Part shown: piece by piece, positions 1 through 38,112 of the stretch
Numbering within the stretch: position 1 is the stretch's first letter
Layout of the letters: each line of letters opens with the position of its first letter
From: Candidatus Hodarchaeaceae archaeon
GTDB lineage: Archaea > Hadarchaeota > Hadarchaeia > Hadarchaeales > Hadarchaeaceae
Assembly (NCBI GenBank): GCA_030018135.1
Contig: JASEGJ010000004.1
Span: 1 to 64,000 of the forward strand
Length of the DNA: 64,000 nt
Reading direction: 5' to 3'
Notes under the pieces: generated by a model
Seen by the model: only the letters and a program-made list of their open reading frames with translations
Database searches by the model: none
What the model was told of the DNA's origin: nothing
Translations under genes and position numbers: made by a program

Positions 1-50
1 TTTCTGGGACTCCGATGTTTTTAAACTACGGCGTGACTTGTGGGAAATGA

Positions 51-284
51 CTTAATTACGATATCTATGCGGACATCGCGGAAATTGGAAGAAGACTGGG
101 TCGCACTTCGGATGGGGAGATAACCATTTTCGGTTCCACGGGCCTCGCGATTCAGGACATAGCGACCGCTTGGATGGTTTATCAAAAGCTAGGGAAGCGG
201 GTAAGGGTGTCGAGGCGGAGCCGCTGTGAAGCTATCTCTTGGATGCCATGCCTTAACTTACGATCGGAGAAACCTCCCTCTTGA
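51..284 (+). pseudogene. Ornithine cyclodeaminase/mu-crystallin family, C-terminal remnant
   Basis: The frame from 51 encodes the characteristic C-terminal block of the ornithine cyclodeaminase/alanine dehydrogenase family: an ADIAEI-like segment, a GRTS..EIT segment, and [12 protein letters not shown] at roughly codons 32-43. An in-frame TGA lies at 48-50, just before the recognisable part, and neither other frame in bases 1-50 continues the family sequence. After the conserved block the frame runs on without similarity to a stop at 282-284, overlapping the end of the DHH gene on the other strand. Intact members are about 320-330 residues, so this is either the decayed end of a gene or one with a frame error near base 50. 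The window edge prevents a decision. Confidence 0.6.
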
Positions 285-1218
285 ACGTGTCCAAGAACGT
301 GTCGAGGAGTTCAATTGGGACGGTCGCGCCCGCCGCCCCCTCGTGGCCGCCCCCGGAGCCCCCGATGCGTGCCGTGATGTGCCTCAGCAACGCGTTCAGG
401 TCGATCTTCACCCCAACGCGCCGCCGCAAGCTCATATCAACTTCATTTTCGTTTTTACGCGTACAGATGCCTATGTCCGCGCCCGCGACGCCCAATGCAT
501 AAAGGGCCGCCTTACCGAGGCTGCCGGAGGGCAGGTCGTAAACTATGGCGATGTTGTCCTCGCGCCGGATGTGCTCCTTGACGTACCGCCAGACCTCCCA
601 CTCGCGTTTCGTCGCCCTTATCGCGCGTTCCACGACTTCGGAGATCTCCGAGGGGGGGACGCCGCGCGCCAGCTTAAGCACGACCTCACGCTTGTAGTGG
701 TAGTCGCCGGCCGCTTCGCCGAGCGCTTGGCTCAAAAGGCCAGCTTCCATATATATCGTCCTTCGGTCGTACTTGCTCAATCCGTCGCGCACGAAATCTG
801 TCTCCTCGGCGTAGTCGGCGATGGCGCCCCAGAGCGCGATGCGGTCCAGGTCGGGATCGAGGTCCGACTGAAACAACCTAAAGGTGAGTTCAGAGGTGCT
901 CGCGCCCACGGCGTGCACCAACTGCGTTGCCGGCACGTCCCTCTTAAGGGTTTCCGGTGGTAGGGGGTGGTGGTCGATGTACACCACCTCATCCTTTCTG
1001 GCAAGCTCTCGCATCCGCTCGAATATCTGCTCCCTCTGGGTCTCGCTTATGGCGACGTCGAGCACGAGCACCGCGGTTCCGACCTGAATCTCCCCAAGGT
1101 CCCGGAGCAGGGTTATGGGCCGAGTGAACCAGACCTCCGCCTCCGGGAACCGCGCCTTTGCCAACGCTGCCGCGCAAATGCCGTCGGTATCGCCGTGCGC
1201 CAAAATCTTGACCGCCAT
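253..1218 (-). CDS. DHH/DHHA1 family phosphoesterase (RecJ/nanoRNase-like)
   Basis: This 321-residue protein has the N-terminal DHH domain followed by a C-terminal DHHA1 domain. Visible motifs are HGDTDG at residues 8-13 (motif I, replacing the usual DHDADG), an LVLD segment near 52, the DHH triad near 82 and [10 protein letters not shown] near 290, the glycine-rich DHHA1 substrate-binding loop. Family members are Mn-dependent phosphodiesterases acting on short oligonucleotides, cyclic dinucleotides or single-stranded DNA. The substrate here cannot be told from sequence. The start ATG at 1218 lies downstream of an A/T-rich promoter-like stretch shared with the tRNA genes beyond 1321. The protein is cytoplasmic, with no signal or membrane segment. 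Confidence 0.88.
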
Positions 1219-1320
1219 CCCGCCACCAGGCGCTACTTTTACCCTATTGCTTTTTAACTTTCGTGCAAGGCGGAGGACAATGTTTTAATCGAATCGCATC
1301 AGATTAAAAGACGGGCCCGA

Positions 1321-1439
1321 GGGCCCGTAAGCGGGAGCAGATCTCGCCGGGAGGCTCAGCTAGGTTAGAGCGCCCGACGGCCAAGGGCTGGGCGAAGCTC
1401 ATAACCGGGCGGTCGAGGGTTCGAATCCCTCCGGGCCCA
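1321..1439 (+). tRNA. tRNA with CAT anticodon (elongator Met or Ile2), two introns
   Basis: Acceptor strands GGGCCCG (1321-1327) and CGGGCCC (1432-1438) pair perfectly, with discriminator A1439. The T-arm is GAGGG-TTCGAAT-CCCTC (1415-1431). A 24-nt intron (1330-1353) interrupts positions 9/10 and a 20-nt intron (1377-1396) interrupts 30/31. Removing both gives a 75-nt tRNA with anticodon stem CCCGG/CCGGG and loop CTCATAA. Both introns fold as bulge-helix-bulge. Intron 1 has central helix CCCG/CGGG and bulges TA^A and AG^G. Intron 2 has central helix CGCC/GGCG and bulges CG^A and AA^G. G1-C72 argues against the initiator. Elongator Met and agmatidine-modified Ile2 cannot be separated here. CCA is not encoded. 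Confidence 0.93.
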
Positions 1440-1496
1440 CCTGACTTCAAAGACTTTAGCAACATTTTATTTGCGCCTCCGCGAAGTTACACTCGT

Positions 1497-1601
1497 GCCC
1501 CGGTGGTGTAGACCGGACAATCATGTCGGCCTTATCGGTCGCGGAGTTCCGGGCCGAGGCCAATCGAGCCGGCGACGCGGGTTCGAATCCCGCCCGGGGC
1601 A
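1497..1601 (+). tRNA. tRNA-Glu(TTC) with an intron inside the anticodon
   Basis: Acceptor strands GCCCCGG (1497-1503) and CCGGGGC (1594-1600) pair perfectly. The T-arm is GCGGG-TTCGAAT-CCCGC, the discriminator is A1601 and CCA is encoded at 1602-1604. A 30-nt intron (1534-1563) sits between anticodon positions 34 and 35. Splicing gives loop CTTTCGA, anticodon TTC. The intron folds as a bulge-helix-bulge: central helix GGCC (1528-1531) with GGCC (1558-1561), bulges TT^A and AA^T, and an intron-side helix TCGG/CCGA. D-arm and overall form match archaeal tRNA-Glu. The mature tRNA is 75 nt. Confidence 0.93.
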
Positions 1602-1691
1602 CCAACTTCGTCATCGATTCAGTCACCTCCTTTTGTCTGGGCTGGCATGTTTTAAACTGCACCCCTCGAGAAGCAAACTTAAAATGGGGCA

Positions 1692-1934
1692 ATGACACTA
1701 GCTCTTGGGGTAAACCTCGTGGTCGAATGTCCCGCCTGCGGCAAGCAACTTTCGCCGCCGACCGTTAAATGTTCGGGCTGCGGCGTCGAACTCCACCGCG
1801 CGTGCGCGAGGAGGACGACGGGCAAGTGGTACTGTAAGGACTGCTACAAGAAGGGCAAGCGTGAGGCGAGGTTTGAGCACATGGCGCAGCGTGCATCGAT
1901 CTTCGGGGCAAAGAAACCCGGCAAGGTCTGGTAG
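1692..1934 (+). CDS. Small treble-clef/LIM-like zinc-binding protein
   Basis: This 80-residue basic protein has cysteine pairs CPAC (about 13-16), CSGC (about 27-30), a His-Arg-Ala-Cys segment near 36 and CKDC (about 48-51), an arrangement typical of a PHD/LIM/RING-like treble clef with two zinc sites. A lysine/arginine-rich tail follows. It lies between tRNA-Glu and tRNA-Leu, in the same orientation. The ATG at 1692 lacks a strong ribosome-binding site and an internal GTG at 1719 is also possible. No specific function is recognisable; RNA or protein binding is plausible for this fold. Confidence 0.7.
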   Translation: MTLALGVNLVVECPACGKQLSPPTVKCSGCGVELHRACARRTTGKWYCKDCYKKGKREARFEHMAQRASIFGAKKPGKVW

Positions 1935-1971
1935 CAACCTCTTTTAGTTTTGTAATCCATACAGATCCCTT

Positions 1972-2056
1972 GCGGGGGTGCCCGAGCTTGGTCTAAGGGG
2001 CAGGGCTTAGAACCCTGTGGCGAAGGCCTTCGAGAGTTCAAATCTCTCCCCCCGCA
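1972..2056 (+). tRNA. tRNA-Leu(TAG), intronless
   Basis: A class II tRNA of 85 nt. Acceptor strands GCGGGGG (1972-1978) and CCCCCGC (2049-2055) pair perfectly, with discriminator A2056 and CCA encoded at 2057-2059. The anticodon stem is CAGGG/CCCTG with loop CTTAGAA, giving anticodon TAG. The long variable arm lies between about 2016 and 2033, and the T-arm is GAGAG-TTCAAAT-CTCTC. It is the only tRNA gene in the window without an intron. Confidence 0.96.
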
Positions 2057-2197
2057 CCATCAAAATCATGCCAAATGAGCAAAATTTAGGCAGTTTTTTG
2101 CTAAAAAGTTAAAGTTATTTAAATTCCTGCTTATTATTTGCCAAGTATTCCGAGCAAAATATATCGATTGACCAGATAATCTAGTTGAGGTGGATAG

Positions 2198-2467
2198 ATG
2201 GGCGACTCAACTGAAGTTGCTGTGAAAACATACACAACGCCAACGTGCCCGTACTGCGCCATGGCGAAGGATTTTCTGAGACAGCGCAAAATAGCGTTCG
2301 AGGAGATAAATGTGGCGGGCGACCGAGAGAGGGCAATTGAAATGATAAACAAGTCCGGGCAAATGGGCGTCCCAGTTCTGGACATCGGTGGAACGGTGAT
2401 AGTTGGATTCAATAAGGAGGCGATCAAAAAAAGCGCTGAAGATAGAGGGGTAGGATGTACGACCTAA
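2198..2467 (+). CDS. Glutaredoxin-like (NrdH/thioredoxin-fold) protein
   Basis: An 89-residue single-domain thioredoxin-fold protein with the redox-active CPYC motif at about 17-20, a GVPVLDIGG segment carrying the cis-proline near 62, and a GFN segment. These match the NrdH/glutaredoxin-like group usually reduced by thioredoxin reductase. GAGGTGG lies about 6 nt upstream of the ATG, and a TATA-like TTATTTAAAT lies near 2113. The gene overlaps the ATG of the thioredoxin reductase gene by 13 nt, so the two probably form a disulfide-reduction operon. The C-terminus ends in a Cys near residue 87. Confidence 0.9.
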   Translation: MGDSTEVAVKTYTTPTCPYCAMAKDFLRQRKIAFEEINVAGDRERAIEMINKSGQMGVPVLDIGGTVIVGFNKEAIKKSAEDRGVGCTT

Positions 2468-3363
2468 TAATCGTCGGCGCTGGACCCCGCGGGGATAACT
2501 GCGGCGATATACGCGGCAAGAAAAAGGCTGAATCTCTTGGTCGTCACAAAAGACATAGGAGGGCAAGCGGCGCTCAGCGCCGATGTTGAGAATCACACGG
2601 GCTACCAGTACATCACTGGACTTGAGTTGGCGAAGAAGTTCGAGGAGCACATGAAAGAATTTGGAATGGAGGTGAAGGAGGGCGAAGAAGTCATCGAGGT
2701 GGAAAAAGCAGGTGACGCGGTCAAGGTCAAGACAGACAAGGGCACTTACGAATCCAAGACATTGATAATTGCATCAGGCGCCAGGCCGCGGACGTTAAAC
2801 GTGCCCGGCGAAGGGAAGTTCAAAAATAGGGGCGTTACTTACTGTGCGACGTGCGATGCGCCCTTGTTCGCGGACGTGGATGTGGCGGTCATCGAGGGCG
2901 GAAATTCAGCCCTAGACGCGACCTTGCAGCTGATGAGGATCGCGAACAAAATTTACCTGATCAACATAAACCGAGGCTCGGCGGCGATGAGGTGATGAGG
3001 GAGAAGGTGGAACGCAGCGACAAGGTGACGGTGCTGAACAACACCAAGACGCTTGAGATAGTTGGAGATAAGATGGTATCCGGGCTTAGGGTTGAGAAGG
3101 ATAAGGAGCAGAAAATTTTGAAGGTGCGCGGCGTTTTCATTGAAATTGGCTACATGCCGAATTCAGATTTCGCAGCGGAGGTGCTGAAGTTGAACGAGCG
3201 GGGCGAAATCGTGGTGGACGACCGCAACAGGACGAACGTGCTGGGCATTTTTGCGGCCGGCGACGTCACCGACGTGCCACAAAAGCAGATCATCATAGCT
3301 GCCGGTGAGGGCGCGAAAGCAGCACTGAGTGCCTATGAATATTTGGCGAAATCAAAGCAATAA
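2455..3363 (+). CDS. trxB: Thioredoxin reductase, reading frame broken twice
   Basis: Three frames together encode a complete roughly 300-residue NADPH-thioredoxin reductase: an N-terminal MYDLIIVGAGP FAD-binding start at 2455, the redox motif CATC near 2850, an NADPH-binding GGNSALDA segment, and the C-terminal FAAGDVTD segment. The frame breaks after a CCCC run at 2485-2488, which behaves as one C too many. It breaks again at CC 2971-2972, which behaves as one C too few; restoring it gives INPRLGGDEV. All catalytic motifs survive. The two opposite one-base changes in C runs, with strong conservation elsewhere, fit sequence errors better than decay. The expected role is reduction of the glutaredoxin-like protein encoded just upstream. 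Confidence 0.85.
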
Positions 3364-3465
3364 AATGGCCCCGCGAACTAGGTCGCGTTTAAAATTTTAC
3401 AATCAATTATAAACTGAAAGGCAAGCTTCATAGGCGGCCACGGCATCATTTTGAGCGGTGGACAC

Positions 3466-4347
3466 ATGCTGGGGGAAAACTTCGTGCCCATTAGGCCGGG
3501 CTTCGGCGGCTTTGACGAGCCATACGAACGAGCTCGGGTAGTATTCATGGGCGTGCCGCTCGACGTGACCTCTTCGTACCGCTCGGGAACGCGCTTCGGG
3601 CCAGCTAGGATCCGCGAGGCGTCCATGAACCTCGAGACGTACCTGATGTCGGCTGACCTCGACATCTTCGAGCGGCTCGGCGTTGCTGACGTCGGCGACC
3701 TCGTAATCTCATCAACAGATCTGGCGGCGACCGGCGAGTGCATCGAGCGGGCCGTGCAAAAGTTCCGAGACGACGGCAAGGTGCCGGCTTTGCTCGGGGG
3801 CGAGCACACCTTGACGTATTTTGCCTCTAGGGCATTAAAGGGCGTATTCATCGTTCAGCTCGACGCCCACCGCGACCTGCGCGATGAGTACATGGGCGAT
3901 AAGCTCTGCCATGCCACGGTCATGCGCAGGGTGCTGGACGACCTGCCTCCGAAGCGACTTTTACAGGTCGGTGTTAGGTCTTGCTCAAAGGAGGAGGCGG
4001 AGTTTGCGCGCTCGGCCGGACTTCGGGCTTATGGGGTTGAGCAGGTGCTGGGCAACTCAGGCAAGGTGGTCGCTGACATCCGTAGAAGGGTAGGAAAGGC
4101 GCCCGTTTACCTGACCATCGACTTGGATGTGCTGGACCCAGCCTTCGCCCCCGGCGTCGCGACGCCCGAGCCAGGAGGCCTGTCGACTCTGAACCTGTTT
4201 AATCTCGTGCGGGAGCTTGGCAGGTTAAACATCTGCGCATTTGATGTGGTCGAGCTCGCCGCGCCGTACGATAGCGGCATAACGGCATTTGCGGCGGCCG
4301 GAATAGTTTATGAGCTGCTGGCGACGATGGCGAGTTCACCGAAGTAA
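3466..4347 (+). CDS. speB: Agmatinase/ureohydrolase family protein
   Basis: About 293 residues of the arginase/agmatinase superfamily. The binuclear manganese ligands are visible: GGEHTLT near 112, the DAHRDLRD segment near 132, and TIDLDVLDP near 224. The usual reaction is hydrolysis of agmatine to putrescine and urea in polyamine synthesis. Guanidino substrates vary in the family, so agmatine is an inference. ATG 3466, preceded by GGTGG, is preferred over the in-frame TTG at 3451. The 3' end overlaps that of the L10e gene by 12 nt. Confidence 0.88.
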
Positions 4348-7923: not shown

Positions 7924-9111
7924 CTACAACTTTCGTACATACCCCATGAGCTTGTGCAGGCCAATCAAACGAAGCAGGCCGGGCCCCTTCTTCGCGAGGG
8001 CTTTGATGAGTTCCCCGTGATGATCGAAATCGACATGCTCAAGTACGAGGGCCCCAACATCTGGCCTCCCGAGGAGTTCGAACGCCGAGTTTAAATCGTC
8101 ATCGGACATTTTTTGAAGCACTTCCCTTGCGTACATGCCAAGCTTAAACTCCGCGCCAAACCTCTTGGCGACCGCGCGCTCGTACCCACGTAGGGCTTTC
8201 GCCGTTACTTCGCCCTCCAGAGCCTTCGATGCGACATCTGCCGCCAGTTTTGCACACGATAATCCAATGTAAATGCCGCCGCCCGTCAGGGGCTTTACCT
8301 GCCCCGCCGCGTCGCCGACCAGCATGACGCTGTCCGCATAAATCTTTCGCGTGAAGGGGTGCGGGATCAGCCCCGCGGTGAAGTGTAGGACCTTGTCGGC
8401 ATCGATTTTCTCCGACGCAACCGGATGTTTCTTCATGAAGTCGGCCAGCTTTCGCAGGGGCGAGCCCTCCGATGTACCGAGGCCCACCCTACAAACATCG
8501 CCGGCCGGCACGATCCAGGCGAAGAACCCCGGCGCGAAAGCACGACCGAAGTACAACTCCGCGGTACTCGCTTCGACATCGGCGATTGTCTCGACTTGTG
8601 CACAGCTGATACAGCGGGGGGACTTTAACAAGCCGGTTTTTCGCGCGATTAAAGAGGCTGGGCCGTCGGCGCCCATCACCAAGCGTGCCTTGATCTCGTC
8701 CCTCCCGCTTGTCCGCTTAACTTTCACGATTACTCCCCGCCCGCGCGAAATATCGAGGCACTTGGTTTTCATCAGCAAGGTCGTGCCTGCGTTGACGGCG
8801 CCGACCGCGAGTTCTCGGTCAAAAGATGCGCGGTCGATCACCAGCGCTTCAACTTTTCCCCTGCCCAAGGGCACAGCGTCGCCCGAGGGCGGGTAAAAAA
8901 CCGCACCCTTGAGATCGCCCAATACCCACTCGCCCGGCTTGATGCCGAGTTCCCCGAGCCCGCTTGTCCCCAAGATGCCAGCGCAGCATACCGGATGGCC
9001 GATCTCGGCGTGCTCCTCTATTATCGCAACATCGAACCCTCGTTCTGCCAACAACTTGCCTATGAAGCAACCCGCCGGGCCAGCGCCGACTATGGCAACG
9101 TCGTACAACAT
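7924..9111 (-). CDS. Geranylgeranyl reductase family flavoprotein
   Basis: About 395 residues with an N-terminal FAD-binding GAGPAG motif, the glutamate ending the second strand (AIIEEH), a VCCAG segment typical of archaeal digeranylgeranylglycerophospholipid reductases, and a second FAD-contact segment MLVGDAAGQVKPLTGGG near 275. These enzymes saturate the isoprenoid chains of archaeal membrane lipids. Lipid rather than chlorophyll-type substrate is inferred from the archaeal context. The ATG at 9111 is preferred; an in-frame TTG at 9123 adds four residues. It is a single gene, divergent from the membrane protein gene at 9166. Confidence 0.88.
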   Translation of the reverse strand: MLYDVAIVGAGPAGCFIGKLLAERGFDVAIIEEHAEIGHPVCCAGILGTSGLGELGIKPGEWVLGDLKGAVFYPPSGDAVPLGRGKVEALVIDRASFDRELAVGAVNAGTTLLMKTKCLDISRGRGVIVKVKRTSGRDEIKARLVMGADGPASLIARKTGLLKSPRCISCAQVETIADVEASTAELYFGRAFAPGFFAWIVPAGDVCRVGLGTSEGSPLRKLADFMKKHPVASEKIDADKVLHFTAGLIPHPFTRKIYADSVMLVGDAAGQVKPLTGGGIYIGLSCAKLAADVASKALEGEVTAKALRGYERAVAKRFGAEFKLGMYAREVLQKMSDDDLNSAFELLGRPDVGALVLEHVDFDHHGELIKALAKKGPGLLRLIGLHKLMGYVRKL

Positions 9112-9165
9112 GCCGCCCGGCAATGATTTTAAAGCGTGAATAGATAATCCTACCGATGTGATTTG

Positions 9166-9630
9166 ATGATTGAAAAAATTGGCTACGTCCTGCTCGGGTG
9201 TTTCCTGCTCCTCCTGCCCGGGTTCATGCTCACGCTTGTGCTATTCCCAAAACAGGGGTTCGATTTTTGGTCGCGCATAGCCTTGAGCGTGGGCTTCGGT
9301 GCGATGGCGCTGATCTACATCGGCGTGATACTGGGCAGGCCCGAGCTCAAGATGCTTCGCTTTGCGCTGTTTGTGGGAGCAGTCCTGCTCTTCTCCGCGG
9401 CCTGCGGGGCCATCGCGTATTTCCGCGGGGGGCTAAAAATTCCCGCGGCTTACGCGCGCGCTGCGATGCGAGTTCTCCGCAAGCTCAAGCCACCCCAGCC
9501 CTCCCCTCCGCCCCAAGCACAACCACCCGCGGAGCAGAAGCAGCTTGAGGAGCCCAAACCCGGAGAGACCCCTCGGCCAGTCTCCCAACAAGCACCGGGG
9601 GAGAAGTCAACAGGCGGTCGGGATGTTTAG
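9166..9630 (+). CDS. Small membrane protein (DUF1616-like N-terminus) with proline-rich tail
   Basis: About 154 residues. Three hydrophobic segments (about 5-27, 36-57 and 65-87) form the membrane part, and the opening LPGFMLTLVLFP..FDFWSR resembles the start of DUF1616 archaeal membrane proteins. The C-terminal 55 residues are proline-, glutamine- and glutamate-rich, probably disordered and cytoplasmic. The gene overlaps the start of pth2 by 8 nt, suggesting co-transcription. No function is known. Confidence 0.7.
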   Translation: MIEKIGYVLLGCFLLLLPGFMLTLVLFPKQGFDFWSRIALSVGFGAMALIYIGVILGRPELKMLRFALFVGAVLLFSAACGAIAYFRGGLKIPAAYARAAMRVLRKLKPPQPSPPPQAQPPAEQKQLEEPKPGETPRPVSQQAPGEKSTGGRDV

Positions 9631-9979
9631 GTATAAGCAGGTCGTGGTTGTTCGAGCGGACCTGAACATGAGCCCGGGGAAGCTCGCTGTCCAGGTCGCG
9701 CATGGCGCAATCGCGTCGGCCGAGCGGGCGCGAAGGGAGAGGCGCGAATGGCTGGATTCTTGGCTCGCCGAGGGTCAAAAGAAAGTTGTGGCCAAGGTGC
9801 AAAGCGGGAAGGAGCTCTTGGACCTTCACCGGAAGGCCAGCAGGTTGGACATACCCTGCGACTTAATTCAAGACGCGGGGCTGACCGAGTTACCGCCCGG
9901 CGTGATAACCGTCCTCGCGATTGGGCCGGCGCCGAGTGAAATGGTGGACGAGGTCACGGGCGACCTGCCGCTGTTCTGA
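9623..9979 (+). CDS. pth2: Peptidyl-tRNA hydrolase, Pth2 family
   Basis: A 118-residue protein matching archaeal/eukaryotic Pth2 throughout: KQVVVVRADLNMSPGKLAVQ at the N-terminus, AHGAI near 29-33, and the QDAGLTELPPG segment near 83-93 with the conserved Asp and Thr. It releases peptides from peptidyl-tRNA that drops off ribosomes. ATG 9623 overlaps the preceding stop. ThiL starts 9 nt downstream, so the genes from 9166 to 10972 may form one operon. Confidence 0.95.
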   Translation: MFRYKQVVVVRADLNMSPGKLAVQVAHGAIASAERARRERREWLDSWLAEGQKKVVAKVQSGKELLDLHRKASRLDIPCDLIQDAGLTELPPGVITVLAIGPAPSEMVDEVTGDLPLF

Positions 9980-9988
9980 GGGCTTGAC

Positions 9989-10972
9989 ATGAAGCTCAGC
10001 GATATCGGCGAGCGATCGCTGGTGGAGCTCGCGCGGAGGATTTGCAAGCTCGGCCCCCGCGTCGAGGTCGGCATAGGCGACGACGCTGCCGCGATAAATA
10101 TCGGCGACCGCTACCTCGTGGTCACGACCGACATGCTCGTCGCCAGCACGCACTTCCCGCCGGGCACCAAGGCCGAGCAGATGGGTCGCAAGGCGGTCGC
10201 CGTGAACTTGAGCGACTTGGCGGCGATGGGGGCGGAACCGCTCGGCTTGGTCTTTTCCGTCGGCCTTCCCCGCGACCTCGAGGTAGGCTTCGTGAGGAGG
10301 ATGATCCGCAGCATGGACGCGGCGACGCGGGGTTACGGGGCTTACGTGGTGGGGGGTGACTTGGACGAGAGCGAGGAGATAATCGTAACTGGCGCGGCGT
10401 TTGGCTTAGCGAACAAGGGCCGGCTCCTGACGCGCTCAGGCGCCAAGCCGGGGGACATCATCGCGGTCACCGGCAACCTTGGCGCAGCTGCGGCGGGGTT
10501 GAAGATACTGCTCGAGCGATTGCCCGCGAGGGGATACGGGGAACTCGTCAGGGCCCAGCTCGAGCCGATCGCGCGCGTGAGGGAGGGCATGTCGCTCGCC
10601 AAATGCGGCTACGCCACGGCAGCGACGGACGTGACGGACAGCCTGGCGGCGAACCTATGGCAAGTATCGAAGATGAGCGGGGTCAAATCGATCATCGATC
10701 GCGCGAGGGTGCCGGTGCACCCCCTCGCTCTGAAATTCGCTGAGCGCCATGGTTTTGAAGTCGAGGAGTTCGCGCTCTTCGGGGGCGAGGACTTCGAGCT
10801 GCTCTTCACGGTGAGGCCGGAGGGCTGGCGAAGGGTGCAACTCGCGCTCAAGCGCATCGGCACCCCCGTCGCGGCGATCGGGCATGTGGAGAGGGGCCGC
10901 GGGGTTTACATCGGAAGGGAGGGTAAATTGGAGAGGCTGCCTGACCGCGGCTATGAGCACTTCAAAGTCTAG
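9989..10972 (+). CDS. thiL: Thiamine-monophosphate kinase
   Basis: A 327-residue ThiL of the PurM/SelD ATP-binding fold. Visible are the glycine-rich IGDDAA segment near 29-34, the Mg-binding TTDMLV near 45-50, AVNLSDLAAMGA near 70-81, GGDLDES near 120-126, and the late GGEDFELL near 266-273. It phosphorylates thiamine monophosphate to the diphosphate coenzyme. The gene follows pth2 at 9 nt and its 3' end overlaps the convergent gene by 4 nt. Confidence 0.95.
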   Translation: MKLSDIGERSLVELARRICKLGPRVEVGIGDDAAAINIGDRYLVVTTDMLVASTHFPPGTKAEQMGRKAVAVNLSDLAAMGAEPLGLVFSVGLPRDLEVGFVRRMIRSMDAATRGYGAYVVGGDLDESEEIIVTGAAFGLANKGRLLTRSGAKPGDIIAVTGNLGAAAAGLKILLERLPARGYGELVRAQLEPIARVREGMSLAKCGYATAATDVTDSLAANLWQVSKMSGVKSIIDRARVPVHPLALKFAERHGFEVEEFALFGGEDFELLFTVRPEGWRRVQLALKRIGTPVAAIGHVERGRGVYIGREGKLERLPDRGYEHFKV

Positions 10973-11364
10973 GTCACTGTTAGCGTGAAGTTGTCCGAGG
11001 CCGCGATCGGAGGACTGGGCACGTATGTCGCCACCGTTAGGATCACAGTATATGTGCCCAGTGGGGCATTATCGACAACACCGAATGTGTAGCTGAACGA
11101 GTTCGGGCCGATGGGACTCACGCTGGCGTCCTCCGTGAGGATCCTAACCCCCTGTGGAGCGCCCGCGACGGTCATTCCGGTGGATATGCTGCTGCCGTAT
11201 TCCGGAGGGGAAACCGTGACCGTCAAGGTGCCGGAACCGCCCCTCGCGACGGAGAGCGACTTGGGGCTGACCGAGATGGTGAGGCTCGGCGCGCCCTCTT
11301 CGCCCGGTTCTCGCGAAGCTAGATAAGCCGTCGCTGCCACCGCGGCCGCGCACATGATGGCCAC
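10969..11364 (-). CDS. Secreted or membrane-anchored Ig-like domain protein, uncertain start
   Basis: The frame encodes at least 131 residues: a hydrophobic N-terminal segment ending AATAYLASREPGEEGAP, then a beta-rich domain with alternating Ser/Thr/Val that looks like one Ig-like or NPCBM/CARDB-type fold. GTG 11364 is the first conventional start. However, the strong Shine-Dalgarno GGAGG (11393-11397, minus strand) sits 4-7 nt before two ATC codons (11383-11388), and translation from there would complete a classic signal anchor (IIKITILAVAIM). Either a rare ATC start or a base error is likely. No specific function is recognised. Confidence 0.65.
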   Translation of the reverse strand: MAIMCAAAVAATAYLASREPGEEGAPSLTISVSPKSLSVARGGSGTLTVTVSPPEYGSSISTGMTVAGAPQGVRILTEDASVSPIGPNSFSYTFGVVDNAPLGTYTVILTVATYVPSPPIAASDNFTLTVT

Positions 11365-11517
11365 TGCGAGAATGGTTATTTTGATGATACCGCCTCCAAA
11401 TCATCGCTTCGCTCTGGCTTAAAAATTGTGGTGCCAACCGGGTTTGATGGCATGTTAAGTTTCTCGCTTTAGGCAGTTCCGCCCCCATAAACCATCGATA
11501 AAAGGAGGCGGTAAAAC

Positions 11518-11700
11518 GTGACCAAGTACGTGGGGTTAGACGTCCACGTGCAAACTTGCCACGCGACGGTGATGGACGAAAGTGGGAGGATCGAGAAGCG
11601 GGAGAAGTTTCGAAACGAACTCGGAGAACTCGAGAGGTCAACAATCCCCAAGTCATCGAATTACCGGTGCCGATGGTACCAATGGGTACAATTTTTATAA
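11518..11700 (+). pseudogene. IS110-family transposase, N-terminal fragment
   Basis: The first 40 or so codons match the start of IS110/COG3547 DEDD transposases: YVGLDVHVQTCHATVMDESG with the first catalytic Asp in GLDVH. A good ribosome-binding site (GGAGGCGGT) precedes the GTG. After ELGELER the similarity ends and the frame closes within 20 codons. Full-length proteins exceed 300 residues, so more than 85% of the gene is gone. No terminal repeats or target duplications could be seen. The fragment sits between thiL and pheS. Confidence 0.7.
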
Positions 11701-11733
11701 CATAGGTCGGCTCTGAGTTGTGCGGGGCGGAAG

Positions 11734-13296
11734 TTGGATTTAAGGTCGCTTATCGATGGCTTGGGTATCAATGAGAGGAAGGTCCTGCTCGCGCTTCAGC
11801 AGCTCAGCGGGGAAGCGGACATCGCGGACATCGAGGGGCAAACTGGCCTCGAGCACGTGGCGGTGATGCGCGCGGCGCTAAACTTGGAGCAACGGGGGCT
11901 TGTCCGGATCAAGGAGCGGAGGCGGTCGATGGCTGCGATAACCGAGGAGGGCCGGATGTACGCTAAGGACGGGCTGCCAGAGCGGCGCATGCTCCGGGCG
12001 CTGGTCGAACTCGCCCCCTGCACCGCGGAGGATGCTGCCGACCGCGCGGGGCTTCCCGAAGAGCAACTGCAGATCTCACTCGGCTGGCTGAGTCGCAAGG
12101 GCTGGGCGGTGTTCATCAAGCAGGCGGGGCGGGCGATGCTCGCACCGACGAGGGCCGGCGAGGAGGCGCTAAAGGAAAAGCGGTCGGACGAGCGGCTTTT
12201 GGAGGTGCTCGCCTCGGGCAACGTCGCGGAGGACGAGCTGCCGGAAGATTTGAGGCTCGAGCTAGATATCCTCAAAAAGCGTGAGTTGGCCTTCGTCAAG
12301 GAGGAAGTCTGGAGGAGGCTCGTGCTAACGGAGCTTGGCGAGCGGGCGCTGGCGCTGGGCATCGAACTCGTTGAGGAGGTCAGCGAGCTCACCCATGAGC
12401 TGCTGGCGAGCGGCAGGTGGCGGGAGGTTAGGTTCAGGCGCTACGATGTCACCGCCCCTGGGCCGCCGGTCTATCCGGGCAGGGTTCACCCCCAGCAGCG
12501 GGTCATCGACGAGCTTCGCGAGATCCTGCTGGAGATGGGGTTCGTCGAGGTCAAGAGCAACTTGGTCGAGTCGGAGTTCTGGAACTTCGACGCCCTCTTC
12601 CAAGCTCAAGATCACCCGGCGCGCGAGATCCACGATAGCCTCTCGCTCTCGAGGCCCGAGCGGACGAAACTTCCTTCATCGGCGTTGGTCAAACGGGTGG
12701 CCGCGGCCCACGAGCGCGGCGTCGCCGGGTCGACCGGCTGGGGATACAAGTTCGACATAGGTATAAGCAGAAGACCCGTGCTGTGCTCACAGACAACCGC
12801 CGCCACCGTGCGGTACCTTGCTTCACACCCAAAGCCGCCCGTCAAGGTATTATGCATTGATCGCGTCTACCGTCACGAGAGGATAGACTACAAGCACCTC
12901 GCCGAGTTCTACCAATGCGAAGGTATAGTGATGGACCGCGGGCTCACGCTGCGTGACATGCTTGGGTACCTTAAGCAAATAATGGTCAAGCTTGGCTTCA
13001 AAAAAATAAGGTTCATGCCTTCGTATTTCCCCTATACGGAGCCCTCGGTACAAGCTCAGGTATATCACGAGGAGAAGCGGGAGTGGTTAGAAATCTTAGG
13101 AGCTGGGATCTTTAGACCAGAGTTGCTTCATCCGCTTGGCATCCGTTATCCTGTGCTGGCTTGGGGCATTGGGTTGAGCAGGCTGATCATGGCTAGGCTA
13201 GGATTAGAAGATATCAGGGACCTTTTCCGCAATGACCTCCAGTGGATTTCGAGCTTTGTTTATACCAGGGGAACCAGAAAAGAATCCTCATCGTAG
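11734..13296 (+). CDS. pheS: Phenylalanyl-tRNA synthetase alpha subunit
   Basis: 520 residues: N-terminal winged-helix repeats (about 1-220) as in archaeal/eukaryotic PheS, then the class II catalytic domain. Visible are VYPGRVHP near 248, motif 2 (CIDRVYRHERIDYKHLAEFYQ, in part) near 376, and motif 3 (AWGIGLSRLIMARLG) near 478. It charges tRNA-Phe as an (alpha-beta)2 enzyme in the cytoplasm. TTG 11734 is the start. The reading frame runs about 10 residues past the usual C-terminal end (RNDLQWI). The last 500 nt are visibly less GC-rich than the first part. pheT follows after 223 nt. Confidence 0.95.
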   Translation: MDLRSLIDGLGINERKVLLALQQLSGEADIADIEGQTGLEHVAVMRAALNLEQRGLVRIKERRRSMAAITEEGRMYAKDGLPERRMLRALVELAPCTAEDAADRAGLPEEQLQISLGWLSRKGWAVFIKQAGRAMLAPTRAGEEALKEKRSDERLLEVLASGNVAEDELPEDLRLELDILKKRELAFVKEEVWRRLVLTELGERALALGIELVEEVSELTHELLASGRWREVRFRRYDVTAPGPPVYPGRVHPQQRVIDELREILLEMGFVEVKSNLVESEFWNFDALFQAQDHPAREIHDSLSLSRPERTKLPSSALVKRVAAAHERGVAGSTGWGYKFDIGISRRPVLCSQTTAATVRYLASHPKPPVKVLCIDRVYRHERIDYKHLAEFYQCEGIVMDRGLTLRDMLGYLKQIMVKLGFKKIRFMPSYFPYTEPSVQAQVYHEEKREWLEILGAGIFRPELLHPLGIRYPVLAWGIGLSRLIMARLGLEDIRDLFRNDLQWISSFVYTRGTRKESSS

Positions 13297-32275: not shown

Positions 32276-32284
32276 GGTGATTTG

Positions 32285-32521
32285 ATGGACAAAGTGGAAC
32301 AGATAAGAGAGAAACTCCGGAACGTAATCGACCCCGAAACCGGCATAAATGTGGTAGATATGGGGATGGTGGAGGAGATAACTGTTAAAGGGGATCGAGC
32401 GAAGATAGCCTTCAGGCCGACTATACCGGGTTGTCCGCTTATAACTTACCTAATGCAGCAGGTAAAATCTGCAGCGGAATTGGTCGTTAAGGAAGCTGAA
32501 GTTCAGGTGCGCGGCATTTAA
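32285..32521 (+). CDS. MIP18/DUF59 family protein
   Basis: A 78-residue stand-alone DUF59 domain: KLRNVIDPETGINVVDMGMV near the N-terminus with the DPE motif, and the PGCPLITYL segment with a Cys near 51. Relatives (SufT, MIP18, PaaD) help insert iron-sulfur clusters. It lies 63 nt before the hydrogenase-like operon in the same orientation. A role in maturing those many Fe-S subunits is plausible by position. Confidence 0.85.
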   Translation: MDKVEQIREKLRNVIDPETGINVVDMGMVEEITVKGDRAKIAFRPTIPGCPLITYLMQQVKSAAELVVKEAEVQVRGI

Positions 32522-32584: not shown

Positions 32585-33076
32585 TTGGAAGAAAAGGTAG
32601 CTCAGCAGAGGGTGTTAATTTTTGACCCTGAGAGGTGCACCGGTTGCCGGTATTGTGAAATAGCGTGCGCATTCCAGCACTACGGAGTAATCAACCCTGA
32701 GAAATCTCATATTCATGTATTCGTCGATGAGCGGCTAATGGAAATGGAGGCGACCAACTGCCAACACTGCGAGGAGCCGATTTGTGCCTCTGTCTGTCCA
32801 GAGGATGCCGTCAGCAAGGACGAGGAAAAGGGCTGGGTGATCATAAATTCGATGAAGTGCATCGGCTGCAAATCCTGCACCCTGTCTTGCCCGCTCTCCT
32901 GTCCATGGTTTAACAAGGAACAGAAAATTGCCGCAAAATGCGACTTCTGCGACGGTGAGCCGGTGTGTGTGAAATATTGTTCATCCAACGCGATAAGGGT
33001 AGGTACCCGGGCTGAGGCTTTAAAGTTCAACGAGTGGCGCTACGGCGAGGAGGCAAAAGATGTTTCAAGAAGCTGA
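32585..33076 (+). CDS. Four-cluster ferredoxin subunit (HycB/CooF type)
   Basis: 163 residues with sixteen cysteines in four groups typical of HycB/CooF/DmsB electron-transfer subunits: CTGCRYCEIAC near 19, CQHCEEPICASVCP near 61, CIGCKSCTLSCP near 93 and CDFCDGEPVCVKYC near 120. Four [4Fe-4S] clusters are expected. It is the first gene of the hydrogenase-like operon and would pass electrons between the hydrogenase module and another partner. TTG 32585 is the start. The end overlaps the NuoC-like gene by 17 nt. Confidence 0.9.
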   Translation: MEEKVAQQRVLIFDPERCTGCRYCEIACAFQHYGVINPEKSHIHVFVDERLMEMEATNCQHCEEPICASVCPEDAVSKDEEKGWVIINSMKCIGCKSCTLSCPLSCPWFNKEQKIAAKCDFCDGEPVCVKYCSSNAIRVGTRAEALKFNEWRYGEEAKDVSRS

Positions 33077-33725
33077 GTTGCTTGAATATCTCAAGATTGA
33101 AATAGGCGTTGGCTTGATCAGCTCCTCCGTGCCGCGCGAGGGGAAGATCTGCGTGACCGTCAAGCCAACTGTACTTCGAACGACCGCCGAGGCCCTGCTC
33201 AAGCGCGGGTCGAGATTTGTGACCATAACGGCGATCGACGGGGGCTTGGACCTTGAGCTAATTTACCATTTTGACCTCAGCGGCACACTCATCACTCTGA
33301 AAACGATCGTTGAGAAGGAAGTTCCGAAAGTAGACACCATCGCCGATCTAACGCCCGCGGCCGAGTGGGCCGAGAAGGAGGTGGCCGAACTCTTTGGCAT
33401 TAGCTTCCGTGCCCACCCGAGGCCCGGACACTTCCTTCTGCCCGATGAATGGCCCGCCGGCAAGCACCCGCTCGCGAAGCCGTTCAAGTCGGAGCTCCCG
33501 GAGCAACTTTGTCAGGTGGCGGAATCTTTGATTACCTCGGGTGCAACCGCGCCGATATCTCCGCTGATCAAGCGAAAAAGGGAGGAAATTGGATTGCCGG
33601 CGCAACCACCTGCAAGCTACGCGAGCGAGCCATGGCTGCGCGAGGTCCACGAACTAGTGCAACGAACCGATTTCAGCAAGAAGGTCGGCTACGATTGGAA
33701 AAAGAGGAAACTTAGGGGCAAGTGA
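33060..33725 (+). CDS. NuoC/HycE-N-like 30 kDa subunit
   Basis: 221 residues. The middle shows the complex I 30 kDa/HycE N-terminal signature: LELIYHFDLSG near 64, then AAEWAEKEVAELFGISFRAH (about 100-119) and PRPGHFLLPDEWP. In complex I and group 4 hydrogenases this subunit docks beside the large subunit. A C-terminal extension of about 70 residues (SPLIKRKREEIGL onward) is lysine-rich and of unknown role. It overlaps the ferredoxin gene and is followed 4 nt later by the HdrB-like gene. Confidence 0.88.
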   Translation: MFQEAELLEYLKIEIGVGLISSSVPREGKICVTVKPTVLRTTAEALLKRGSRFVTITAIDGGLDLELIYHFDLSGTLITLKTIVEKEVPKVDTIADLTPAAEWAEKEVAELFGISFRAHPRPGHFLLPDEWPAGKHPLAKPFKSELPEQLCQVAESLITSGATAPISPLIKRKREEIGLPAQPPASYASEPWLREVHELVQRTDFSKKVGYDWKKRKLRGK

Positions 33726-33729
33726 AGCC

Positions 33730-34608
33730 ATGAAAAGATACGCGCTATTCTTGGGATGTTTAATCCCCCAGCGAATTCCCAGCGTTGAACTGGCGGCAAG
33801 GAGGGTGTTCGAGAGGCTGAACATCGAGGCGGTCGATCTCGAGGGTTACACCTGTTGCCCAGACCCCATAGTGGCGCGCTTGATGGACAGGAAAATGTGG
33901 CTGGCTTATTCCGCTAGAAATTTAAGCTTGGCTGAGCAGCATGGGCTCGACCTTATGACGCTTTGCAATGGCTGCTTTGAGACACTTTTCGAGGCGAATG
34001 AAATCATGAAGCGAGAGCCACAAACTAAGCGGGAGATCAATGAACTGCTCGCTCAGGCAGGGAAAAAATATGAAGGTAGGGTAAACGTCAAGCACGTAGT
34101 TGAGGTGCTCCACGAGGAGGTCGGAGTGGGGCAGATAAAAAAGCTCGTGGAGAGGCCGATGAAGTTGAAGCTCGCGGTTCATCCGGGTTGCCATTTGTTT
34201 AGGGAGGTCGAGGGCGGCGACATCTGGAGGAAGCCGAGGGAACTTGATGAGTTGGTACTAGCCACCGGTGCGAAGGTTGTCCATTGTAAGCTTGACCGCC
34301 TGTGTTGCGGTTTCCCAATGATGCAGGCCAACGAGGAGCTTGCGTTAAAGCAAAACCTGTCGCTGAAGTTGGCCTGCTATCGTCATTTAGCCGTCGATGG
34401 AATCGTTGTGCCATGCCCGACCTGTGGCATCCAGTTTGAAACGGGTCAGGTGTTGCTCCGAAAGTACGGCGCGCGATACGACATCCCATGCCTGCATGTA
34501 GTTGAGCTTTTAGCGCTCGCCCTCGGAGTTCCGGCTGACGAACTCGCGCTGGACCTCCACCGCAGCCCGGTTCCGCTGCTTGTGCAGAAGGTGTTGACGG
34601 ATGTCTAA
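33730..34608 (+). CDS. HdrB-like subunit (two CCG domains)
   Basis: 292 residues of the heterodisulfide reductase subunit B/CCG family. The first domain has C10, C42-C43 and C79-x2-C82. The second has HPGCH near 150, RLCCGFP near 190 and PCPTC near 229. In HdrB these bind two noncubane [4Fe-4S] clusters that cleave a heterodisulfide. The first domain reads CCP rather than CCG but keeps its cysteines. Its placement between NuoC-like and NuoD-like genes, with an 8-nt overlap into the latter, marks it as a true subunit of the complex. The substrate is unknown. Confidence 0.9.
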   Translation: MKRYALFLGCLIPQRIPSVELAARRVFERLNIEAVDLEGYTCCPDPIVARLMDRKMWLAYSARNLSLAEQHGLDLMTLCNGCFETLFEANEIMKREPQTKREINELLAQAGKKYEGRVNVKHVVEVLHEEVGVGQIKKLVERPMKLKLAVHPGCHLFREVEGGDIWRKPRELDELVLATGAKVVHCKLDRLCCGFPMMQANEELALKQNLSLKLACYRHLAVDGIVVPCPTCGIQFETGQVLLRKYGARYDIPCLHVVELLALALGVPADELALDLHRSPVPLLVQKVLTDV

Positions 34609-35725
34609 AGTGATCGTCGGCCCTTATCACCCCGCGCTCCTCGAGCCTGAACTCTACGAAGTCACGGTGCGGGAAAACAAAATTGTGGATGTCAGCATCA
34701 GGCAGGGCTACACGCACCGAGGCATAGAAAAGCTGATGGAAACAAAAAGTTTTCATCAAAATGTCTTCGTATGTGAGCGCATCTGCGGCTTCTGCTCGCA
34801 CGCCCATACGTGCTGTTACTGCCAAGCGGTCGAGGAGCTCTTTGGCATCGAGATCCCAGAAAGGGCAAGTTACATTCGCACGCTGATCTTCGAGCTTGAG
34901 CGCTTGCACAGTCACTACCTTTGGTTGGCGTTGTTCTTTCACACGCTCCACGACAAAGAGCAATTCATAAGGATCGTCGATGCGCGCGAGCGGCTCATGG
35001 ACCTTTTCGAGCCCATATGCGGCAATCGAGTTCATTACGCGATAAATGCGATAGGTGGTGTTAGAAGAGACGTAACTCAGGCGGCAGTGGGCCAAGTTGA
35101 AAAAGTCTTGAACGAATTGGAGGCCCTTTCCGAAAACACCTTGCTTGCCTTAGAAAAAAATGCGCCGAAGCTCTCCGGCTTGGGTCCGCTGTCCAGAGAA
35201 AAAGCCTTGAATTTTGGCGCCGTCGGGCCTGTTCTGCGTGCATCTGGTGTGAAGTCCGACATAAGAAGGGACGATCCGTATGCGGCTTACGATGAGGTCG
35301 ACTTTGAGGTGATAACGGAGAATGGTTGCGATGTCTTGGCAAGGGCGCTCGTTAGGGCGATGGAGACCTATGAGAGCATGAAAATCATTCGACAACTGCT
35401 CAGCGGCCTACCCCTGGGGGAGATCAAAAAAGAGGTGGGCAAGCCGCCGGTGAGGGAGGAGACGAGCAGGGTGGAAGCGCCCAGGGGCGAACTGATTTAT
35501 TATGTTCGGTCGGATGGAACGAATATTCCCCGACGGGTTAAACTAAGGCCCCCAACCTATGCGAACGATCGCGCGGTAATCGAGATGCTTCAGGGACAAA
35601 AACTTGGCGACCTTCCAATAATACTAGAGAGCCTCGATCGCTGCATCTCCTGCACTAACCGTTTAACTATCATCGACGAAAGGACCGGAAGTAAAAAACA
35701 GGTAAAGCTGACCGACCTTGGGTGA
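34601..35725 (+). CDS. [NiFe]-hydrogenase large subunit, group 4-like (NuoD-related)
   Basis: 374 residues resembling the large subunit of Ech/Hyc-type hydrogenases and NuoD. The L1 motif RICGFCSHAH (C62, C65) and L2 motif DRCISCTNR (C348, C351) keep all four cysteines that bind the NiFe centre. That argues for a hydrogenase rather than a complex I subunit. L2 deviates in reading DRC instead of DPC. No C-terminal extension for protease processing follows L2 beyond about 23 residues, ending KLTDLG. It overlaps the HdrB-like gene by 8 nt and the small-subunit gene by 8 nt. Confidence 0.9.
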   Translation: MSKVIVGPYHPALLEPELYEVTVRENKIVDVSIRQGYTHRGIEKLMETKSFHQNVFVCERICGFCSHAHTCCYCQAVEELFGIEIPERASYIRTLIFELERLHSHYLWLALFFHTLHDKEQFIRIVDARERLMDLFEPICGNRVHYAINAIGGVRRDVTQAAVGQVEKVLNELEALSENTLLALEKNAPKLSGLGPLSREKALNFGAVGPVLRASGVKSDIRRDDPYAAYDEVDFEVITENGCDVLARALVRAMETYESMKIIRQLLSGLPLGEIKKEVGKPPVREETSRVEAPRGELIYYVRSDGTNIPRRVKLRPPTYANDRAVIEMLQGQKLGDLPIILESLDRCISCTNRLTIIDERTGSKKQVKLTDLG

Positions 35726-36602
35726 AAAATTGGGGGAAGTCAACATTTATCGGCTGGATGTCGGTTCGTGCAATGGCTGCGATATTGAGGTGTTCAGTGC
35801 CTTGGCCACGAGATTTGGGCTGGAGAAGTTGGGGGTAAAGCTCGTCGATGACCCAAGCGAGGCCAACGTGCTCATAATTACGGGAGTGCCGACGATCAAG
35901 ATGCACGAGGTTCTCAAGGAGGTGCGCGGGAAGCTGAAGTCACCGAAGCTCGCCATCTCCGTGGGTGCATGCGCCCTTTCAGGTGAGGCGTTTGAGGGAT
36001 CTTACAGCGTCGATGGGATGGTGGACGATATAATTCACGTGGATGCATACGTACCTGGTTGCCCACCGAGCCCGCAGGCCATCGTCGAAGCGCTCGCCAA
36101 CGTGCTCGAGCTCGGGCCGAGGGCTTCGGAGGCGCCCAGCGGCTTTAGGGGGATGCCCCAGCTCGACGCTGAAAAATGTACGGCTTGTGGCGCATGCGCG
36201 CAGGTATGCCCAACGGGAGCAATAGAGCTTGCCGACGAAGATAGCGAACGGGTAGTGAAGTTCAAATATGAAAAATGCATCTCCTGTGCTTTCTGTGAGG
36301 AGGTCTGCCCAGAGGAGGCCATAAGCATATCCGCCGAACGCCCGTCATTAACCAAGAATAGGAAGGCGATCGGGATAAGCGGTAGAATGGGACTCCAGCG
36401 ATGTTCAGTTTGCGGAAAACCCTTCGCGCCGACCAGCCAGCTTCAGAGGGCTGCGGATAGGATAGTGGAGGATGTCAAGGAATTTCAGGCATATCGCGAC
36501 CTGATTGCTCAAGCCATGGGCTTGTGTCAAAACTGCAGGATGCTTCCCGAAAACATAAGGAAGGCGAAAATCCTGTTGTTTAAGCTTGACCGGGCTGTCT
36601 AA
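35718..36602 (+). CDS. [NiFe]-hydrogenase small subunit fused to a 2x[4Fe-4S] ferredoxin
   Basis: 294 residues. Residues 1-140 are a NuoB/EchC-type small subunit with C18, C21, SVGACALSG near 94 and VPGCPP near 123, binding the proximal cluster. Residues 150-205 are a NuoI/EchF-like ferredoxin (CTACGACAQVCP and CISCAFCEEVCP). The tail holds CSVCGKPF and CQNCRML pairs, a possible zinc or extra cluster site as in HycF-type proteins. Such a small subunit-ferredoxin fusion would shorten the electron path. It is the last gene of the operon. Its 3' end overlaps the convergent gene by 4 nt. Confidence 0.9.
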   Translation: MGEKLGEVNIYRLDVGSCNGCDIEVFSALATRFGLEKLGVKLVDDPSEANVLIITGVPTIKMHEVLKEVRGKLKSPKLAISVGACALSGEAFEGSYSVDGMVDDIIHVDAYVPGCPPSPQAIVEALANVLELGPRASEAPSGFRGMPQLDAEKCTACGACAQVCPTGAIELADEDSERVVKFKYEKCISCAFCEEVCPEEAISISAERPSLTKNRKAIGISGRMGLQRCSVCGKPFAPTSQLQRAADRIVEDVKEFQAYRDLIAQAMGLCQNCRMLPENIRKAKILLFKLDRAV

Positions 36603-36865
36603 AGGATTTTATAGACGAGGTCCCCCTCGCGCGCGCGTTGGTCGACCTTCAAACCGATCGACTGTCCAGCTTTGGCGACCTCCACATCCTCATGCTCGAT
36701 CTGCATCGAGTTCACTACTTGCTGGAAATTTGTGGTCGTACCCTCTATGGATACTCTATCACCTACCCTCAGCTCATCGCTCAGCTCCACGACCGCCACG
36801 CCAATCTTCGTAAAGTAGTGGGTGACCTTCCCAACAGGTTTCTTCTCAATGGGTATTTCTTCCAT
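36599..36865 (-). CDS. EF-Tu domain 2-like small translation-related protein
   Basis: An 88-residue single beta-barrel domain: KKPVGKVTHYFTKIGVAVVE, the LRVGDRVSIEG segment near 33, and VAKAGQSIGLKVD near 63, all as in domain 2 of translational GTPases. Stand-alone copies are common in archaea and carry no GTPase. They may bind RNA, or partner with U32 peptidases, but no function is established. GAGGTGA lies directly before the ATG. Confidence 0.85.
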   Translation of the reverse strand: MEEIPIEKKPVGKVTHYFTKIGVAVVELSDELRVGDRVSIEGTTTNFQQVVNSMQIEHEDVEVAKAGQSIGLKVDQRAREGDLVYKIL

Positions 36866-37224: not shown

Positions 37225-37545
37225 TCAGCGCTTTTCGCTTGTGCCCACGATTCCTAGGCGGCACCCCATGCGACGGCCCAACTCCGGGTACGCTTTGGCT
37301 ATACCGAGAGTTATCCCCCAGCCACTGAAGATAGCAGCGGTAATCGTTGCCCCCAGAAGCAAGTCCATGAGCGGCGCCTCCCCGATTAGGAAGAGTTCTC
37401 CATGCCAAAGGTGGTCCACTACCCCGAACAGTGCGCCCCCGTAGAGTAGTAGGTTGAGCCACCAGCCTGCGGGCCCACTTCGCCGGGCCCCCCAAACGAT
37501 GGACGTAATTATAGCTGCCGCCAAGGGTACGGTGTAACAAACCAT
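37225..37545 (-). CDS. Small membrane protein with three helices
   Basis: A 106-residue protein with hydrophobic segments at about 4-20, 26-46 and 58-82 and a short basic C-terminus. GGAGGT lies 7 nt before the ATG, which supports the start. The composition (WWLNLLLYGGALFGVVDHLWHGELFL) suggests a small integral membrane protein of the kind seen in many archaea. The function is unknown. Confidence 0.75.
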   Translation of the reverse strand: MVCYTVPLAAAIITSIVWGARRSGPAGWWLNLLLYGGALFGVVDHLWHGELFLIGEAPLMDLLLGATITAAIFSGWGITLGIAKAYPELGRRMGCRLGIVGTSEKR

Positions 37546-37707
37546 TTTTTTAACCTCCGCAATAGTAATATTTTTTGATATATAAATATTATCAAATTGC
37601 AGGGCCCGAGAAAATTAAGAAGTTATCGCACCGTTTTAAAGGCGGTTTTTTACCTCGACAAAGCATAAATGCCCGAATTTTCAAGTCCACTCGGAGCTGG
37701 TGCTGTC

Positions 37708-38112
37708 ATGTCTTCAAAGATAACGCGCGTGAGTTTGACCTTGCCGCAGGGGTTGCTCGATGAACTCGATCGCATGCTCGAGGCCCAACGATATGCAAGC
37801 CGCTCGGAGGCGTTTAGGGATGCCATCCGTGATTTCTTGGCGAACTATCGGTGGCGGAGCGAACTCAAGGGCGAACAACTGGGGGCCATCCTCGTGCTTT
37901 ACGAGCATGATGTGCGAGGATTGATGGACGAGCTCATGGACATCCAACACGAGCACTCGAGCGTAATAAGCGCCGTCCAGCACTTACACATCGACGCCAA
38001 AAATTGCTTGGAGGTCCTCATCGTGAAAGGGGCGGCGGGGAAAATTCGCAGTCTGATCGATCGTATCGGCGCCACGCGGGGGGTCAAGCAGGCCAAGTTG
38101 GTGGTGGTGTAG
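37708..38112 (+). CDS. nikR: Nickel-responsive regulator NikR
   Basis: 134 residues: an N-terminal ribbon-helix-helix (ITRVSLTLPQGLLDELDRML, RSEAFRDAIRDFL) and a C-terminal ACT-like nickel domain with H92, H94 and C100 (QHLHIDAKNC) plus HEH near 81-83, the square-planar Ni site. The protein represses nickel uptake genes when nickel is plentiful. ATG 37708 is the family start; longer frames add unrelated residues. It lies 1.1 kb after the [NiFe]-hydrogenase-like operon, consistent with nickel demand. The HD-domain gene follows 1 nt later. Confidence 0.94.
   Translation: MSSKITRVSLTLPQGLLDELDRMLEAQRYASRSEAFRDAIRDFLANYRWRSELKGEQLGAILVLYEHDVRGLMDELMDIQHEHSSVISAVQHLHIDAKNCLEVLIVKGAAGKIRSLIDRIGATRGVKQAKLVVV

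Follow-up and report, generated by a model that had tools for sequence, protein, structure and literature searches.

What can a [NiFe] hydrogenase core related to complex I do when it is encoded together with an HdrB-like heterodisulfide reductase subunit and with no membrane subunit? The question is raised by five genes (g1 to g5, all on the + strand, positions 32585-36602) in the window, i.e. the whole 64,000-nucleotide stretch analysed here, which lies on contig JASEGJ010000004.1 of a Candidatus Hodarchaeaceae archaeon (Hadarchaeota). In the following, G000 is the genome of this window and the other G numbers are genomes searched for relatives. Sequence comparisons suggest that the operon probably encodes a soluble [NiFe] hydrogenase-disulfide reductase complex (an H2:disulfide oxidoreductase) that would use neither flavin-based bifurcation nor ion pumping. 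Coupling of H2 to a disulfide, already predicted in an earlier note on this DNA, is the most economical reading of the locus.

Indeed, the five genes are tightly packed, with overlaps of 17 nt (g1/g2), 8 nt (g3/g4) and 8 nt (g4/g5) and a gap of 4 nt between g2 and g3; coordinates, overlaps, gap and family scans agree with the overlapping or nearly adjoining genes, and the protein families, that the earlier note had described (Table 1). The presence of all four NiFe cysteines is borne out by the alignments: C62/C65 and C348/C351 of the NuoD-like large subunit g4 are unchanged in the eight aligned Hadarchaeota sequences, and a wider alignment has them in all of its hydrogenase-type rows, which rules out an Ehr- or complex I-like NuoD lacking the Ni site. 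The solved structures closest to g4 are those of HycE of formate hydrogenlyase (FHL; 7z0s_E, 7e-69) and the membrane-bound hydrogenase (MBH; 6cfw_L, 7e-65). The ferredoxin g1 carries four cysteine motifs (CTGCRYCEIAC, CQHCEEPICASVC, CIGCKSCTLSC and CDFCDGEPVCVKYC), all retained among the operon copies listed, and in the HdrB-like g3 all ten CCG cysteines (10, 42, 43, 79, 82 and 154, 192, 193, 229, 232) are invariant in eight Hadarchaeota. None of the five proteins has a hydrophobic segment above the Kyte-Doolittle threshold.

Table 1. Coordinates of the operon genes and of their diagnostic segments in the window.
Feature	Position	Strand	Description	Basis
g1	32585..33076	+	HycB/HydN-like ferredoxin, 163 aa, four [4Fe-4S] motifs	Pfam Fer4 families
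g2	33060..33725	+	NuoC-like (30 kDa) subunit with HdrC-like C-terminal tail, 221 aa	PF00329 Complex1_30kDa 3.7e-21
HdrC-like tail of g2 (residues ~144-221)	33489..33722	+		profile searches
g3	33730..34608	+	HdrB-like, 292 aa, two complete CCG motifs	TIGR03288 272.6 bits, under the equivalog cut-off of 345
g4	34601..35725	+	NuoD-like [NiFe] large subunit	Complex1_49kDa PF00346 1.8e-62; NiFeSe_Hases PF00374 3.9e-15
L1 Ni-ligand motif of g4	34784..34795	+	CGFC (C62, C65)	alignments
L2 Ni-ligand motif of g4	35642..35653	+	CISC (C348, C351), context SLDRCISCTNR	alignments
g5	35718..36602	+	NuoB-like small subunit with a fused NuoI/HycF-like 2x[4Fe-4S] ferredoxin, 294 aa	PF01058 (Oxidored_q6) 9.7e-22; Fer4_7 7.9e-17

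The rest of G000 (1.108 Mb, 45 contigs, completeness 92.9%) provides no obvious missing partners. Genome-wide searches returned no match to Proton_antipo_M, to NADHdh/NuoH or to McrA, and none to HdrA at E<=1e-10; membrane genes placed elsewhere in the genome are ruled out, at the given completeness, by the antiporter and NuoH searches. The claim that the operon has neither a membrane subunit nor HdrA therefore holds for the genome as well as for the operon. Moreover, g4 is the sole PF00374 match of G000, and g3, of which both domains gave a match, is its sole CCG protein. The maturation set covered comprises HypA/C/D/E and HycI: HypD and HycI are encoded, a HypC-like gene lies beside HypD and HypA/HypE-like genes lie near HycI, the last two sets having been read from the sequence. 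Since these genes are kept in a genome where the searches revealed g4 as the sole NiFe large subunit, g4 is presumably a matured NiFe enzyme. HypD is matched again by a short stretch interrupted by two internal stops (G000:C20:10953-11126), likely a pseudogene remnant.

The search for a conserved gene order, which the earlier note had proposed, retrieved the arrangement in 8 of 28 Hadarchaeota genomes and in 9 of 398 Thermoproteota genomes. The Hadarchaeota copies belong to seven genera (G000, G004, G005, G012, G014, G016, G017 and G021), and that of G014 ends inside g5 at a contig end. Six of these eight copies share the flanks of the window, whereas those of G017 and G021 differ, so that the gene order is kept without synteny in two genomic settings; its recurrence in both, and in a second phylum, argues against chance. 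Gene order kept across two phyla also supports the single soluble complex envisaged earlier, the assembly of which is predicted. An additional hydrogenase cluster with NuoH is encoded on another contig in four of the hosts (G012, G014, G016 and G021); in the other four (G000, G004, G005 and G017), no NuoH was found anywhere in the genome.

A part of g2 overlooked in the earlier note offers a possible explanation of how HdrB is held in such a complex. Residues 144-221 form a C-terminal tail that matches TIGR03290 (HdrC) at 2e-6 and, with phmmer, the chains 8rvu_c and 5odc_C. A profile of 21 g2 sequences retrieves residues 106-183 of the HdrC chain 5odc_C at 2e-9 and 8rvu_c at 4.7e-9, and a tail-only profile retrieves HdrC of G027 (3.5e-13), of G026 (5.6e-10) and, weakly, of G320/G297, and no canonical NuoC. 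The ferredoxin part of HdrC is missing from g2, in which only the tail is fused to NuoC. By analogy with HdrABC, we infer that this tail may be the docking site of HdrB; in the predicted structure of the chimera, computed from a three-row alignment, the tail has a pLDDT <50. In the phylum of Halapricum, a partial sample of 392 genomes searched at a strict E<=1e-27, with no known positive control, gave no match to the chimera, and Drh of the Methanocellales may yet carry it.

In the proposed mechanism, the NiFe site of g4 would split or form H2. Electrons would reach HdrB, seated on the HdrC-like tail of g2, by way of the NuoB cluster and both ferredoxin clusters of g5 and then, probably, the four clusters carried by g1. 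The two non-cubane clusters of HdrB would then reduce or oxidise a disulfide/dithiol couple, and g1 could be an entry or exit point for ferredoxin. Because there is no flavin adenine dinucleotide (FAD) subunit and no membrane arm, neither HdrA-type bifurcation nor ion pumping is expected. Such a complex probably goes back to HdrB-linked group-4 hydrogenases (Drh/Ehd/Ehe) that lost NuoH and the antiporter subunit and in which NuoB became fused with NuoI.

The Thermoproteota relatives bear on this derivation. The full-length chimera was found in 13 of 398 sampled genomes; the soluble gene order is present in nine of these 13, the copy of G395 stopping inside g4 at a contig end. In the other four (G107, G259, G191 and G400), the chimera and HdrB are accompanied by NuoH, and NuoI and NuoB are encoded by separate genes. 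An antiporter-like protein of 857 aa is encoded in G107, antiporter pieces lie close to a contig end in G259, a 384-aa antiporter-like protein lacking its N-terminal half is encoded in G400, and no antiporter is present between g1 and g2 in G191. The proposal in the earlier note that HdrB stands where the membrane arm would be is contradicted by these four genomes, in which HdrB and NuoH coexist, mostly with an antiporter-like subunit; HdrB as a substitute for the arm is thus ruled out. The same coexistence indicates that HdrB was probably in place before the arm disappeared; in the simplest history, HdrB and the HdrC tail would have joined a membrane-bound group-4 hydrogenase, which later shed its arm and acquired the NuoB-NuoI fusion.

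In the large-subunit tree, all soluble forms make up one clade (100/100) with the Hadarchaeota in one group and the Thermoproteota in another; the tree also gives a 100/99 split, and the best PDB relatives are HycE and MBH. In the HdrB tree, which sets 21 HdrBs from operon copies beside nine others, the operon proteins are united in a single clade (100/99) without a clean separation of soluble from membrane types. Two loci have further genes of interest at their sides: in L083 (G082), the soluble operon is flanked on one side by a CopG-GcvH fusion (1970-2563) and on the other by NuoE/F/G-like proteins and the small and large subunits of a second hydrogenase (8428-13271); in L086 (G336), the regions on either side of the HdrB-hydrogenase operon (3-4002 and 8911-11361) encode HdrA and an HdrCB-MvhDGA-like set, so that both systems occur in one locus.

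The nature of the disulfide was considered first from the side of the methanogens. Drh and Ehd have been proposed to act as H2:CoM-S-S-CoB oxidoreductases in methanogens (PMC9723716), and the same acceptor, the heterodisulfide of coenzymes M and B, could be considered here, as g3 is full length, has both CCG motifs and matches the methanogen HdrB chain 5odc_B over its length (7.8e-84). However, McrA is missing from all operon-bearing Hadarchaeota; it was found only in three genomes of family f3, none of which has the operon, a distribution in keeping with the HdrABC and alkane pathway reported for a Hadarchaeota family (PMC10811742), if f3 is that family. Furthermore, methanogen HdrB and those f3 HdrBs that are encoded next to HdrC have a CCGAGGG loop in the second CCG domain; in the operon copies this loop is two residues shorter and reads CCG(F/Y)P in 20 of 21 and CCGFV in G400. 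With no Mcr and an altered loop, the methanogen heterodisulfide is quite improbable as the substrate.

The leading candidate, put forward tentatively, is a protein-bound lipoyl disulfide. Published work favours this idea: GcvH is encoded in Ehe clusters (PMC9723716), a lipoyl carrier takes part in sHdr systems, and LipS1/S2 and Lpl proteins are reported in Hadarchaeota (PMC10332631). In G107, a lipoate cluster (L092, 11102-15564) encoding a CoA-disulfide-reductase-like flavoprotein, GcvH, LipS2, OsmC, LplA and LplB adjoins the membrane-bound HdrB-hydrogenase cluster. The CopG-GcvH fusion lies near the G082 operon and ~12 kb from the G131 operon, and LplA/LplB lie ~12 kb from the G297 operon; as flanks were sampled unevenly and without a background rate, only the adjacency in G107 is more than a hint. 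A bolder and rather doubtful extension is that a soluble hydrogenase exchanges electrons directly between H2 and a protein-bound dithiol on a lipoyl carrier. The HdrB-linked hydrogenases would then include a membrane-free branch, found in two archaeal phyla, in which NuoC became a docking platform for HdrB, and extant intermediates would record a stepwise loss of the ion pump.

The enzyme could also run towards H2. A redox valve in which ferredoxin or thiols drive H2 evolution, venting fermentation electrons with HdrB as the point of electron entry, would suit the HycB-like g1 and the HycF-like g5, as in formate hydrogenlyase, and organisms that are mostly described as heterotrophs (PMC10811742). 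Nevertheless, a plain ferredoxin hydrogenase needs neither HdrB nor an HdrC tail, yet the cysteines are strictly kept. Since thiol-driven H2 evolution is also energetically uphill at ordinary potentials, H2 evolution seems an unlikely main role.

Finally, the operon might not encode a hydrogenase at all but a descendant of the NiFe site, such as a sulfane or polysulfide reductase resembling the membrane-bound sulfane reductase (MBS), with HdrB used for sulfur chemistry, as HdrB-type proteins act in sulfur oxidation in sHdr systems (PMC10332631). The loss of the membrane arm could be read in this way, as could a substitution conserved across the Hadarchaeota copies: one Ni-ligand cysteine of g4 is preceded by residues giving DRC in 8/8 Hadarchaeota and DPC in the Thermoproteota copies. 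This alternative is nonetheless very unlikely, given that the four Ni cysteines are intact and that HycI and Hyp genes are kept though no other NiFe enzyme was found. In Thermoproteota, hyp and hycI genes are also clustered with the operon, several copies having HycI, HypF, HypD and further hyp genes as direct neighbours, which points to a real hydrogenase.

Several observations weigh against a soluble H2:disulfide oxidoreductase. DRC in place of DPC beside the Ni-ligand cysteine, present in all Hadarchaeota copies, could alter the site. The large-subunit tree joins the soluble and membrane-bound HdrB forms at 84/69 only, with one long-branched outsider inside. At 92.9% completeness, single absences in G000 are not absolute, yet G004, G005 and G017 likewise lack NuoH. 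HdrA is encoded in two of the eight operon-bearing Hadarchaeota (G014 and G017), so that HdrB could exchange partners in some hosts. Lastly, the flanks of the Hadarchaeota operons showed no lipoate gene, in a comparison that did not extend to a search of the genomes themselves for such genes.

The operon is not of a new kind, since HdrB-interacting group-4 hydrogenases, membrane-bound or membrane-associated, are already published under the names Ehd, Ehe, Drh and Ehg (PMC9723716). Drh of the Methanocellales, which is transcribed in Methanocella conradii, shares the group-4-type [NiFe] core, HdrB and the lack of an ion antiporter subunit (PMC9723716; PMC6046458); compared by description only, it differs in being membrane-associated and in occurring in methanogens with CoM-S-S-CoB, whereas the window operon has no membrane subunit and its host no Mcr. 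Ehd (Methanomethylicia), Ehe (Culexarchaeia, whose hosts lack full CoM/CoB synthesis; PMC9723716) and Ehg (Nezhaarchaeia) also combine a [NiFe] core with HdrB within the operon but, again by description only, have antiporter and membrane subunits, both absent here, where NuoB and NuoI are fused. As the operon encodes no membrane part, it is placed outside Drh, Ehd, Ehe and Ehg proper, from which it is also set off by its host group. FHL/Hyc, MBH and group 4g have the same four Ni ligands and NuoB/NuoI clusters, and the large subunit shares 43-48% identity with its membrane-bound homologues in Hadarchaeota and Thermoproteota; unlike the operon, these enzymes include NuoH and antiporter subunits but lack HdrB. 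HdrABC-MvhADG shares an HdrB with two CCG motifs and the HdrB-contacting HdrC tail; the operon lacks its HdrA/FAD and HdrC ferredoxin domain and has a group-4 rather than a group-3 hydrogenase, and no bifurcation is expected here. sHdr-LbpA resembles the operon in its HdrB-like chemistry and in the lipoyl carrier and LipS/Lpl genes beside some clusters (PMC10332631); it has no hydrogenase, whereas HdrA/HdrC sets are absent here, and a lipoate link would be tentative for the Hadarchaeota operons. No account of a membrane-free form was found in the open-licence papers surveyed, and this form appears to be new, as does the NuoC-HdrC chimera unless the published 'HdrC' is the same protein.

As group-4 hydrogenases are evolutionary cousins of complex I, the series running from antiporter, NuoH and HdrB through a half antiporter and NuoH only to no arm provides comparative material on the uncoupling of a complex I-type enzyme from ion pumping. 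The operon also represents a simple, possibly purifiable soluble core for finding what the HdrB-linked hydrogenases (Ehd, Ehe, Ehg) reduce, and it suggests H2-dependent disulfide chemistry in non-methanogenic subsurface archaea.

Around the operon, a 79-aa MIP18/SufT-PaaD-like iron-sulfur assembly protein (32282-32521, +) is encoded 63 nt upstream, with relatives adjoining the operon in G016 and G005. Downstream, a conserved 88-aa protein (36599-36865, -), elongation-factor-domain-like by eye, adjoins the operon in five Hadarchaeota; a conserved 106-aa protein with two hydrophobic segments (37225-37545, -), which is not cotranscribed, is found near the operon in G012, G004, G016 and, weakly, G005; and a NikR-like nickel regulator is encoded at 37669-38112 (+), with a counterpart downstream of the operon in G012.

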